Assembly (NCBI GenBank): GCA_001567505.1
Contig: LLEU01000010.1
Location: forward strand, 1 to 64,000
Length of the DNA: 64,000 nucleotides
Source of the DNA: Acidobacteria bacterium OLB17
GTDB taxonomy: Bacteria; Acidobacteriota; Blastocatellia; Pyrinomonadales; Pyrinomonadaceae
Direction: 5' to 3'
Shown here: piece by piece, positions 12,866 to 15,826 of the stretch
Layout: each line of letters opens with the position of its first letter
How positions within the stretch are numbered: position 1 is the stretch's first letter
The notes under the pieces: generated by a model
What the model was told of the DNA's origin: nothing
What the model saw: the letters and a program-made list of their open reading frames with translations, nothing else
Database searches by the model: none
Program-made: the position numbers and the translations under genes

Positions 12866-13831
12866 TTGAGCTCCAATATCTTACAAAAGGTCAGGCGTTG
12901 GGTTGATGAAGACGCGGTCGAGGGCGTCCTCGAAGATTCTGCCCGAAACGCGAAAGCAAAGGCCCGTAATCGTGCAGAGCAGTTTATCGCCGAAGTTGCG
13001 CAGAAGATCGATGCGGTCATTCGCGACGAAATGGTCCCATTGCCGCAAGGCACGGTCATCATCCCGCGCGAGTTCACCGTCTTTTTGAGTGCGGATGATG
13101 ATAAGGAATGGCAGGGCGAGAAGCGTCGCGGCCTTGCTAAGGGCCTGCATCACGTTCTCGGCGAGCGGGCCCGCGAGATCGCCGGAAAGAAGAAGCTTGA
13201 GACGCCTTCGTTCGGGATCGAATTCAGGATCGACGGCACCCTCGAAAAAGGAGAGATAAGGGTCGAACATAGTTGGGAAGATTCGACTTCCAACAAAACC
13301 GGCGTACTTGCCCGTCCTAAAGTCCTGGAGCAGCCCGTGGAACGCGATACGATCTCTGTCCACGTTGCGCCGCCCGAACCGCCGCCCGCGGCCAAGATCC
13401 CGGCCGCGCCGACGACCGTCTCGCAACTAAAGAATCCCGTAACGGCTCGCGAGATCGCGCAGGCGGTTCCGCTTCCGGCGCCAGAAGGCGAGGAGATGAC
13501 CCACGTTGCTCCACGGGCGAAAGAGCTCTACAAGCTCGAGGTCTGGCGAGGCGGTCAGCGACAGAACGTCATACCGATCTATCAACGGCAGATCGTCATT
13601 GGCCGTGGCTCAAAATCGAAGCCTGTGGATATCCCGCTCTCCGGCGATGTTGAGATCAGCCGTCGCCATCTTGTTATCGGTATGGAGGAGAACGGCTCGT
13701 TCTGGCTCCTGAACGAGGGCCGGAATGCGGCCGAGATCGGTACGTTCGCTCTTCCCGTGGGGCAACGCTACCAGCTCCAGCCGGGAATGACGATCACCGT
13801 CTGCAGCTATTCGCTTCGTGTGGTGCGTTAA
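12866..13831 (+). CDS. Second FhaA-like protein: DUF3662-like N-terminus plus FHA domain
   Basis: 321 residues from a TTG at 12866. The first 145 residues form a DUF3662-like domain (IPREFTVFLSADDDKEWQGE, then a TPSFGIEFRIDGTL strand). A Pro/Ala-rich linker (about 155-215) precedes an FHA domain at about 225-321 with IVIGRGSKSKPVDIPL and VEISRRHLVIG; the usual TGSTNGT loop is diverged to NEGRNAAEIG. The TTG start is chosen because the stop of the kinase is only 6 bases upstream; no better ATG precedes the conserved region. Together with the kinase it forms a phospho-signalling pair matching the module at 1-5649. Function is inferred from family only. Confidence 0.8.
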   Translation: MSSNILQKVRRWVDEDAVEGVLEDSARNAKAKARNRAEQFIAEVAQKIDAVIRDEMVPLPQGTVIIPREFTVFLSADDDKEWQGEKRRGLAKGLHHVLGERAREIAGKKKLETPSFGIEFRIDGTLEKGEIRVEHSWEDSTSNKTGVLARPKVLEQPVERDTISVHVAPPEPPPAAKIPAAPTTVSQLKNPVTAREIAQAVPLPAPEGEEMTHVAPRAKELYKLEVWRGGQRQNVIPIYQRQIVIGRGSKSKPVDIPLSGDVEISRRHLVIGMEENGSFWLLNEGRNAAEIGTFALPVGQRYQLQPGMTITVCSYSLRVVR

Positions 13832-14307
13832 GTCAATGTAGATAGCTCATTTAGGGCGACCAGCCTCAGAACTTCCTTTAATGACTCTTCCGCCTTTATG
13901 ATCGTGTCTTTCGGATAGCGAAGCTTTACCGCATGCTCCTCGAACTCATCGCGATCCAATACGATCGCCTCTTTGCCGGGCCATACCAACACGTCGATAT
14001 CAAGATCGACGTATTCGAGGATGCAGTCTCGCAGGACCGGAGGCATTGCGATATTGCAATAGAAGTTTCGCAGTTTTCCGGCAGGATGCTCAAAGCGGAA
14101 AACATTATACCAACGGTCGAGCCAGTAGAATTCGTGAGAGACGGTACCTGCTTCGATACGTCCGAGGTCGGGATGCTCAACAGCTGCGTCAAACGCGCCG
14201 ACGAGGTCGATTCGTGTGTCGTCCTGGCGAACGATGTCGCCTGACCATTCGCGTCGAATTGTCCCGTCAAAAGCGAGGGAACGAACCGTAACGTGCCTAG
14301 TCTTCAC
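13828..14307 (-). CDS. DUF402-domain protein, likely nucleoside di/triphosphate phosphatase
   Basis: 159 residues. The core YWLDRWYNVFRFEHPAGKLRNFYCNI is followed by YVDLDIDVLVWPG and LDRDEFEEHA. These match the DUF402 (FomD/Ntdp-like) fold, in which the clustered Asp residues bind divalent metal. Known members hydrolyse nucleoside diphosphates or CMP-linked intermediates; the substrate here is unknown. It converges on the FHA gene with a 4-base overlap of the stops. It starts 11 bases inside the end of the universal stress protein gene, so those two probably share a transcript. Confidence 0.8.
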   Translation of the reverse strand: MKTRHVTVRSLAFDGTIRREWSGDIVRQDDTRIDLVGAFDAAVEHPDLGRIEAGTVSHEFYWLDRWYNVFRFEHPAGKLRNFYCNIAMPPVLRDCILEYVDLDIDVLVWPGKEAIVLDRDEFEEHAVKLRYPKDTIIKAEESLKEVLRLVALNELSTLT

Positions 14308-14749
14308 TTCTTACGATCAGGACAGAGCAGTGTGCGTGGTGAACGACGGAATCTGACACCGAACCAAGTAATAGTCGCTCCCAGCGGTTATATCCATGAG
14401 AGCCGAGAACGATCATATCGGCCTTTAGCTCTTCTGCGGTCTCGACTATGCGGCTGTCGGGCGAGCCAAATAAGATGTCGCTAGAGATCGCCGGCGGATC
14501 CTTTTCAAACTCGGCCTTTAGCATCGCGGTCGTCGAGGCGATCACCTTATCTGCGTGGTCACGGGCGGCCTTCTCGATCTCCGTAGTGTCCGGCAGGTAT
14601 CCGCTGTAAACATCTATCCCGAGCGGGACGGCCATATCAACTACCGTCACGATGTGGATCGAGTCGGCACCCGATAGTGCGAACTTCTTCACGGCCGCGG
14701 CGGCCGCTTCGCCATGCTTCGTTCCATCCGTCGCTAGGATGATCTTCAT
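14297..14749 (-). CDS. Universal stress protein, UspA family
   Basis: 150 residues, the usual single-domain length. The N-terminus is MKIILATDGTKHGEAA, and the C-terminal ATP-binding signature is MIVLGSHGYNRWERLLLGS followed by SVLIVRS, fitting the G-2x-G-9x-G(S/T) pattern of the ATP-binding UspA subfamily. These small cytosolic proteins are stress-induced. The gene lies between a MarR regulator gene and the DUF402 gene on the minus strand and may be co-transcribed with either. Confidence 0.9.
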   Translation of the reverse strand: MKIILATDGTKHGEAAAAAVKKFALSGADSIHIVTVVDMAVPLGIDVYSGYLPDTTEIEKAARDHADKVIASTTAMLKAEFEKDPPAISSDILFGSPDSRIVETAEELKADMIVLGSHGYNRWERLLLGSVSDSVVHHAHCSVLIVRSED

Positions 14750-14809: not shown

Positions 14810-15280
14810 TCAGTCTTCTTCTTCAGGGTCCTGGCCGGTGTACGTATTGCGCAGTTTGCCGAGCAGGTCGAAGAGTACAAGCCGTTCGGTTTCGCTCAAG
14901 TTCTCCAAAGTGTCTTCCTCAAGCTCGTGCCACTGCGTTTCGACCTCGGCGCGGATCGCCAGCCCTTTCTCGGTCAGGAAAACGCGAGTGCTCCGGCCAT
15001 CAACTTCGCCTTTGCGGACGTGAACGAGATTGATCTCGACAAGCGCCTTGACCATCTTACTCACTGTCGGGGCCGCAAGATTGAGACGCGCCGCGATGTC
15101 AGCCTGCCGCAGGCCGTTCTTTTTCCACAGCTCTATCAGGACGAACGCCTGGCCGGCGTGGAGCCCGATCGTCGCCATATTTCGCTCAAGGGAATTACGA
15201 AAGGCGGTCGATGCCCTCGCTAGAACGAAGCTGATCGTCTGCTCAAAAACAAATTCTGCGGGTCTTGGTGCCATTGGCAT
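14810..15280 (-). CDS. MarR-family transcriptional regulator
   Basis: 156 residues with a winged-helix core: GLHAGQAFVLIELWKKNGLRQADIAARL, recognition helix APTVSKMVKALVEINLVH, then wing VRKGEVDGRSTRVFLTEKG. MarR dimers usually repress divergent or downstream genes until a small ligand releases them. Directly upstream of its start lies the array of inverted repeats at 15320-15405, and the divergent gene at 15446 begins on the far side. The regulator probably controls itself and that gene. Two start codons (15280 and 15274) are possible. Confidence 0.9.
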   Translation of the reverse strand: MPMAPRPAEFVFEQTISFVLARASTAFRNSLERNMATIGLHAGQAFVLIELWKKNGLRQADIAARLNLAAPTVSKMVKALVEINLVHVRKGEVDGRSTRVFLTEKGLAIRAEVETQWHELEEDTLENLSETERLVLFDLLGKLRNTYTGQDPEEED

Positions 15281-15319
15281 CTTTAACGAATTAGCGGCCT
15301 ACGCGCTATTCCTTAGGGA

Positions 15320-15405
15320 GCTAACGATAGATCGTTAGCACGCTAACTACATATAATTAGCAAGCTAACAAAAGTTAATTGGCAGGCTAACCAAATAAAG
15401 TTAGC
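15320..15405. promoter_or_regulatory. Array of four 20-bp inverted repeats with 22-bp period, probable MarR operators
   Basis: Four units occupy 15320-15339, 15342-15361, 15364-15383 and 15386-15405, each separated by exactly 2 bases. Every unit begins GCTAAC. The right half-sites are GTTAGC, ATTAGC, ATTGGC and GTTAGC. The first unit is a perfect palindrome (GCTAACGAT-AG-ATCGTTAGC). The array fills the intergenic space between the marR-type gene and the divergent gene at 15446. A 22-bp repeat places dimers on nearly the same helix face, which suits cooperative binding. Confidence 0.75.
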
Positions 15406-15445
15406 GTGGTATGAAATGTTATGCAAGTCCGCTAAGATTGATTTA

Positions 15446-15826
15446 ATGGAAAAGAATGAAAGACTTAAACGATGCCGCGACCTGCTTCTGAAACTTCATA
15501 AATCTATGGTCGATCTCGAGCGGTCGCTTTATGAAGGTATCCACGGGGAACTGACCGCGGGACAGTTCCTCAACCTGCTGCTTGAGAATGATGATTTCGC
15601 GTGGCTCCGCCGCTTTTCGCTGCTGATCGTCGAGATCGATGAACTTTTCGATCAAAAGGATGGCATAGCGGAGGAGGATATTGATGCGGCGCAAGCGAAA
15701 GTTGCCGAACTAGTCCGTATGGACGGCGGCGATGATTATTTCGAAGACAAATACAAATACGCTCTGCAGCACAGCGTTGAGGCAGCATCACTGCAGAGCG
15801 AATTAAGGTCTTTAACCGGAGACTAA
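15446..15826 (+). CDS. Small conserved-looking hypothetical protein divergent from the MarR gene
   Basis: 126 residues from ATG 15446. I do not recognise a named family. It looks all-helical and soluble: ERLKRCRDLLLKLHKSMVDL, then ELTAGQFLNLLLENDDFAWL and LLIVEIDELFDQKDGIAEED, with many acidic residues and no membrane segment or signal. A longer start at 15416 is possible but would begin only 11 bases after the operator array. Its position next to the repeats makes it the obvious target of the MarR regulator. It converges on the transaldolase gene, with the stops 3 bases apart. Confidence 0.7.
   Translation: MEKNERLKRCRDLLLKLHKSMVDLERSLYEGIHGELTAGQFLNLLLENDDFAWLRRFSLLIVEIDELFDQKDGIAEEDIDAAQAKVAELVRMDGGDDYFEDKYKYALQHSVEAASLQSELRSLTGD

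Follow-up and report, generated by a model that had tools for sequence, protein, structure and literature searches.

A phased row of MarR-type operators in a divergent control region conserved in a genus of Acidobacteriota

The stretch of DNA analysed here (the window, 64,000 nucleotides, with positions counted from its first letter) carries a gene of the MarR family, a divergent gene and, between the two, a palindrome repeated at regular distance. The usual picture of a MarR repressor is a single dimer bound to a single operator. The locus raises the question of what a whole row of such sites would do, which of the two genes it belongs to, and whether the regularity of its step has been selected.

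A preliminary description had placed four units of the form GCTAAC-N8-GTTAGC at 15320, 15342, 15364 and 15386. These starts, the left arm GCTAAC in all four units, the perfect 9-2-9 palindrome of the first unit and the exact 22-bp period were all confirmed on the sequence; all four 20-mers are present, with one mismatch in the right arm of the second and two in that of the third. The choice and number of units were not borne out. The true unit is a 12-bp palindrome of MarR/SlyA type, TTAGC-NN-GCTAA, and each 20-mer spans a spacer together with the half-sites that flank it, the right half of the site before and the left half of the site after. Once re-registered, the same half-sites give six phased sites with a step of 22 bp throughout. 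Sites alternate with 10-bp spacers in an array of 122 bp (15291–15412), which fills the gap between the start of marR (15280, minus strand) and that of the divergent gene (15446, plus strand). The features of the locus, with sites scored as matches out of ten, are as follows.

13828–14307, minus strand: DUF402 gene (PF04167, E = 2.4e-17), overlapping the stress-protein gene and lying after it
14297–14749, minus strand: universal stress protein gene (PF00582, E = 4.2e-31), downstream of marR
14810–15280, minus strand: gene of the marR-family regulator P0001 (156 aa; PF01047, AlphaFold2 model, Foldseek), presumed owner of the array
15291–15302, unstranded: operator site 1, TTAGCGGCCTAC, 8/10, in phase with the rest, marR start codon 10 bp away
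15313–15324, unstranded: operator site 2, TTAGGGAGCTAA, 9/10, from the sequence
15335–15346, unstranded: operator site 3, TTAGCACGCTAA, 10/10, exact match (the assembly has two)
15357–15368, unstranded: operator site 4, TTAGCAAGCTAA, 10/10, exact match in the assembly, identical to the Salmonella SlyA consensus given in the cited excerpt (PMC2156107)
15379–15390, unstranded: operator site 5, TTGGCAGGCTAA, 9/10, from the sequence
15401–15412, unstranded: operator site 6, TTAGCGTGGTAT, 8/10, right half altered, overlapping the expected −35 region of the plus-strand gene
15433–15438, plus strand: weak −10-like hexamer TAAGAT, ending 7 bp ahead of the ATG of the plus-strand gene
15446–15826, plus strand: divergent gene of P0002, a 126-aa all-helical protein that matches nothing in Pfam or NCBIfam

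Between positions 15281 and 15445, the best score for six sites was 54/60 at period 22 and at most 34 at the other periods from 12 to 29, while 2000 dinucleotide shuffles of the same interval reached a maximum of 35 at period 22 and of 39 over the whole 12–29 range. Over the whole window, single 12-mers with up to two mismatches numbered 22 against 17.6 expected, which is no excess over chance; the significant part is therefore the phasing and clustering of the sites. In the 2.97-Mb assembly the only two copies of the exact 12-mer lie inside the array, and, judged by this confinement within its own assembly, the regulator is a local one. Counts of the exact 12-mer in each genome of the genus showed no excess over a reversed-pattern control, and remote sites are not claimed.

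A promoter scan returned no sigma-70-like sites and identified neither promoter. Hexamers resembling TAAGAT were found by eye at about the same position in most of the relatives listed, and from the place of this hexamer we infer a near-leaderless transcript for the divergent gene. Only 10 bp separate the array from the start codon of marR, so the marR promoter should lie within the array or against it. In the promoter-proximal site 6 the right half reads GGTAT in place of GCTAA, a change shared by many relatives; perhaps this half doubles as promoter sequence.

The regulator and its neighbours

The assignment of the neighbouring gene to the MarR family was upheld, with P0001 scoring 44.1 bits against PF01047 (E = 1.9e-11; cut-off 24.6). 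Its AlphaFold2 model (mean pLDDT 84) has the standard MarR fold, with a C-terminal tail of low confidence (residues 149–156) and no extra domain for contacts seen in the model. The Foldseek matches listed for this model were MarR-family structures, with E values from 1.8e-7, and included the SlyA–DNA structure 3q5f. Although the operator is SlyA-like, P0001 is by its score not a SlyA orthologue, since it reached 27.9 bits against a cut-off of 120 for the SlyA equivalog (NCBIfam PRK03573). Among the named MarR equivalogs (BilQ, AdcR, OhrR, HpaR and others) the best match was BilQ, at 51.7 bits against a cut-off of 125, and the other 24 among the 25 of 35 NCBIfam matches listed were likewise under their own cut-offs; the ligand is therefore not given by family. 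The stress-protein gene probably shares an operon with marR, judging by the 60-bp gap between the two.

P0002 was modelled by AlphaFold2 at a pLDDT of 95, and homologues were found in 88 of the 162 genomes of the class. Its invariant residues include H18, K19, D23, E30, W53, L54, R55, D65 and E66. P0002 itself had no match in Pfam or NCBIfam, and Pfam matches among 30 relatives were scattered and confined to single members (E = 0.008–0.2). Searches with P0002 gave a weak match among PDB sequences (E = 0.048) and no clear structural match by Foldseek (best E = 0.19); the best VIA-align scores (Z up to 7.5) fell on unrelated helical bundles, under the level that the tool regards as meaningful for such folds. 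Copper-storage proteins appeared among these matches at Z of about 6, which amounts to nothing firm. Beyond the divergent gene, on the minus strand, follow a transaldolase/fructose-6-phosphate aldolase gene (PF00923) and a FAA hydrolase gene (PF01557).

Conservation of the array in the genus and sister genera

Each of marR and the divergent gene is present in 39 of the 41 genomes of the genus; the two genomes that carry neither (G018 and G118) are 89% and 78% complete. A phased array of three to seven sites was found at all 39 loci carrying both genes, in agreement with the preset expectation that the repeats would recur upstream of orthologous marR genes. Contiguous sites scoring at least 7/10 numbered three in two genomes, four in eight, five in 13, six in 15 and seven in one. 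When sites of at least 8/10 were taken at these 39 loci, the step between neighbours was 22 bp in 126 of 140 cases and 44 bp in ten, and the remaining four steps were 9, 13, 45 and 100 bp, one each. An independent search for two sites 22 bp apart, with up to two mismatches, had matches in 37 of 41 genomes within the genus and in 5 of the 121 that represent the rest of the class, while the reversed-pattern control matched 4 of 162 genomes. Two genomes in which both genes are present gave no match in this search (G008 and G028), and their arrays are more worn. The same locus occurs in Acidobacteriota assemblies several of which are labelled Pyrinomonadaceae or Chloracidobacterium.

The operators keep 8.4/10 identity between genomes, whereas the 10-bp spacers keep 4.5/10 against 3.3 expected from composition. 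Spacers are 74% A/T, and their third position is A in 149 of 200 units. Over 36 of the 39 genomes, codon 11 of marR lies between 3 and 68 bp from the first site, a spread of 65 bp. Because the spacers are nearly unalignable and the distance to the flank varies while the step stays constant, the phasing itself must have been selected. We regard this evolutionary evidence, drawn from comparison of genomes, as the strong part of the case.

Outside the genus, 17 genomes of the family have a marR relative (E ≤ 1e-15), and in each of them the region upstream of this gene was read. A palindromic site of at least 8/10 lies next to the locus's own marR at all 39 genus loci and all 17 sister loci, and these sites are putative operators. 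A pair of sites at 22 or 23 bp was present at 15 of the 17 sister loci: six genomes of genus g21 have a single 23-bp pair, three loci a 22-bp pair (G083, G100 and G146), five a 22-15-22 arrangement (G087, G101, G103, G113 and G145) and one a 23-15-23 arrangement (G105). Two loci have a single site each (G102 and G104). The register GCTAAC-N8-GTTAGC is broken at the 15-bp gap of the 22-15-22 arrays, where TTAGC-NN-GCTAA remains intact.

At eight of the 17 sister loci (G100, G101, G102, G103, G104, G113, G145 and G146) the transaldolase gene also present in the window lies directly beyond the sites, with no divergent gene between. Since the sites are there without the divergent gene, they belong to marR, and ownership of the array by the divergent gene is ruled out; relatives of that gene outside the genus, moreover, have a divergent marR at only 4 of 30 loci. 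On this comparison the divergent gene is an optional neighbour. The proposal that the sites are operators of the adjacent MarR-family protein fared well: they look like such operators, and the phased row is kept at orthologous marR genes.

Cooperative repression and competing explanations

In our judgement the locus probably encodes a local MarR autorepressor whose dimers would sit side by side and cooperatively on one face of the DNA and repress the genes on both sides. The identity of the sites, their phasing, their conservation and their link to marR come from comparison; binding, cooperativity, the sign of regulation and a ligand we infer. Each TTAGC-NN-GCTAA would take one MarR dimer, so that up to six dimers would lie edge to edge along one DNA face over the full length of the divergent control region, neighbouring dimers touching and binding cooperatively. 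DNA turns once every 10.5 bp, and a 22-bp step thus corresponds to 2.1 turns, which would bring adjoining dimers together on almost the same face. The step is also about the footprint of one MarR dimer, since 22 bp is both the length contacted by OhrR and the length of the main NadR operators, as described in the cited excerpt (PMC4841544). The strict 22-bp step suggests contact between dimers and cooperativity; the 15-bp step of the sister arrays would place two dimers on nearly opposite faces. With its promoter at the array, marR would repress itself, and the two genes that follow it (stress protein and DUF402) would probably be repressed as well. The divergent gene would be repressed too, since its −35 position overlaps with site 6. 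Ligand binding would release the dimers and switch both transcripts on. Negative autoregulation with two-sided repression by a cooperative row of dimers offers the simplest account of the locus.

If dimers bound independently of one another, 22 bp would be just the closest packing, and more sites would add occupancy and range with no contact between dimers. The 22-bp footprint of OhrR and NadR (cited excerpt of PMC4841544) would suit such packing, as would the variation of site quality and number among relatives. Independent sites would, however, tolerate spacers longer than 10 bp, whereas only 4 of the 140 steps in the genus are neither 22 nor 44 bp, in spacers whose letters are near saturation, and the main steps at the sister loci are 22, 23 and 15 bp; we consider independent binding unlikely. 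Quite improbable, in our view, is activation, in which MarR at site 6 (centre at about −39), together with the phased upstream sites, would recruit RNA polymerase to the divergent gene. Such a role would agree with a divergent-gene promoter that has no recognisable −35 element in the scan, with a proximal site that starts at −44 or −45 from the divergent-gene start codon in 27 of 39 genomes, and with upstream sites at two-turn steps. Against it, site 6 overlaps the −35 position itself, and sites remain beside marR at loci that lack the divergent gene, so that their basic role concerns marR.

Tandem-repeat expansion could also leave a regular period, the step being the footprint of duplication with no function attached, and some Bacteroidales do carry TTAGC-type 12-mers repeated every 21 bp with no MarR-like ORF near, which would suit such a minisatellite. 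The spacers of the present array are nevertheless non-repeated and almost fully diverged, while the half-sites and step persist and the locus is kept across the genus and, in variant forms, across the family; barring strong concerted evolution, spacer divergence largely refutes this explanation, to which we give a minimal chance. Palindromes can fold in RNA, and an attenuator, terminator or small RNA might in principle account for them, yet both coding starts lie downstream of the array, the scan found no terminator-like site, and the lone Rfam match (E = 0.66; 17.5 bits) stays below the gathering score of 78. An RNA element is hardly credible on these results and was dropped.

Some observations also count against cooperative two-sided repression. 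Binding at the outer sites (8/10) may be weak or absent, activation too could proceed from operators with centres near −39, −61 and −83, and the ten 44-bp steps indicate that a single site can be lost. On the same side stand the promoter scan, which identified neither promoter, the two genus genomes that carry neither gene, the two sister loci with one site each, and those steps at which the distant pairs listed mostly have no adjoining MarR ORF. The chain or filament of dimers and the steep repression put forward in the preliminary description would both fit the exact phasing. A bolder form of this idea, which we hold only tentatively, is that the genus-conserved row of three to seven operators builds a MarR nucleoprotein filament on one DNA face, with 22-bp steps and a twist of about 34 degrees per step, in which one ligand event would act as a nearly all-or-none switch. 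In the sister genera, the same contact would then be used in two opposed pairs (22-15-22).

Several known regulators resemble this system in part. SlyA of Salmonella and E. coli has the same 12-bp palindrome, to whose published consensus site 4 (TTAGCAAGCTAA) is identical, and its DNA-bound structure is among those matched by the P0001 model; at hlyE, according to the cited excerpt, SlyA occupies two regions apart from each other and acts there against H-NS (PMC2156107), whereas here the regulator's own locus has three to seven sites in a single phased row. MarR operators do tend, as stated in the preliminary description, to comprise one or two sites, yet three are known, for example the three NadR operators at nadA; regulators of NadR/OhrR type place dimers on about 22 bp as proposed here, and the excerpt describes no evenly stepped row of sites (PMC4841544). 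Long footprints are likewise reported for PecS (20–100 bp) and CrtR (52 bp) and ascribed to single or multiple dimers; no inverted repeats were found for CrtR in that source, and a fixed step is not mentioned in its cited part (PMC6739363). Multi-site control by MarR proteins is thus already known, on the excerpts for NadR, PecS and CrtR (PMC4841544, PMC6739363). Outside the family, the MerR-like BldC forms cooperative multimers on direct repeats and the winged-helix protein RdfS forms oligomers, again as given in excerpts (PMC5859096, PMC11963761). The present array may work like these ordered oligomers on repeated sites, although they belong to other protein families and BldC uses direct repeats where the sites here are symmetric dimer sites (PMC5859096, PMC11963761); it is the phasing alone that suggests this likeness to cooperative DNA-coating regulators. 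A strictly stepped, genus-conserved row of up to seven MarR operators did not turn up in searches of open-access papers.

Taken together, the 39 versions from the genus and the 17 from sister genera, 56 in all, show how operator number, quality and step evolve in this control region, and their pattern is one in which the step is held while letters and copy number are free. Contact between MarR dimers on DNA becomes directly testable by an insertion of a few base pairs. The array suggests a natural design rule for steep switches, a 12-bp site at a 22-bp step, and a target is predicted for an uncharacterised, genus-conserved regulator and for an unnamed helical protein.

Paired sites in distant relatives

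Pairs of exact 12-mers separated by 2–32 bp were sought in one genome per species across 84,980 species, which yielded at least 118 loci. A MarR-family ORF was called where a profile of the genus proteins matched at E ≤ 1e-4 within 400 bp of the pair. Among the 118 loci listed, such an ORF adjoined the pair in 6/6 cases at step 15, 10/11 at step 22, 16/16 at step 25, 13/14 at step 26, 4/5 at step 27, 3/4 at step 28 and 6/7 at step 35; for the eleventh step-22 locus (L095), marR lies outside the stretch examined. The corresponding counts were 2/8 at step 21, 1/9 at step 24, 0/5 at step 42 and 0/5 at step 43, and pairs at 21, 24, 36, 37, 42 and 43 bp mostly had no adjoining MarR ORF among the loci listed. 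That 12-mer pairs adjoin marR genes at 15, 25–28 and 35 bp speaks further against the register GCTAAC-N8-GTTAGC. Read across these genomes, the 12-mer would so be a widespread MarR operator that occurs in pairs in Gammaproteobacteria, Clostridia, Chloroflexi and others, with a step that varies by group. Recognition-helix residues were compared beside the 12-mer pairs, and no signature is claimed.

Pairs at steps 25–28 (L076, L115, L119, L130 and others) came mostly from Aeromonas, Shewanella, Vibrio and Pseudoalteromonas, and consist of two SlyA-type boxes beside a MarR/SlyA-like gene in 36 of 39 cases among the loci listed. Those at step 15 (L077, L096, L101, L142, L168 and L170) belong to Clostridia and Anaerolineales; their boxes adjoin MarR-like ORFs, and the step equals the inner gap of the sister arrays. 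The 21-bp runs of Bacteroidales (Mediterranea, Caecibacteroides) start at 6562 in L141 and at 2343 in L180, and the profile used detected no MarR-like ORF nearby. Paenibacillus has a conserved pair of boxes at a step of 40 bp (L074, L156 and L174), with the nearest MarR-like ORF about 3.3–3.6 kb off, and this pair is a possible remote target. In Amycolatopsis and relatives (L081, L084, L087, L116, L128 and others), dispersed hairpin-like repeats with TTTAGC-NN-GCTAAA cores lie away from MarR ORFs and supply most of the pairs at 24, 36, 37, 42 and 43 bp; they perhaps form a repeat family of their own.
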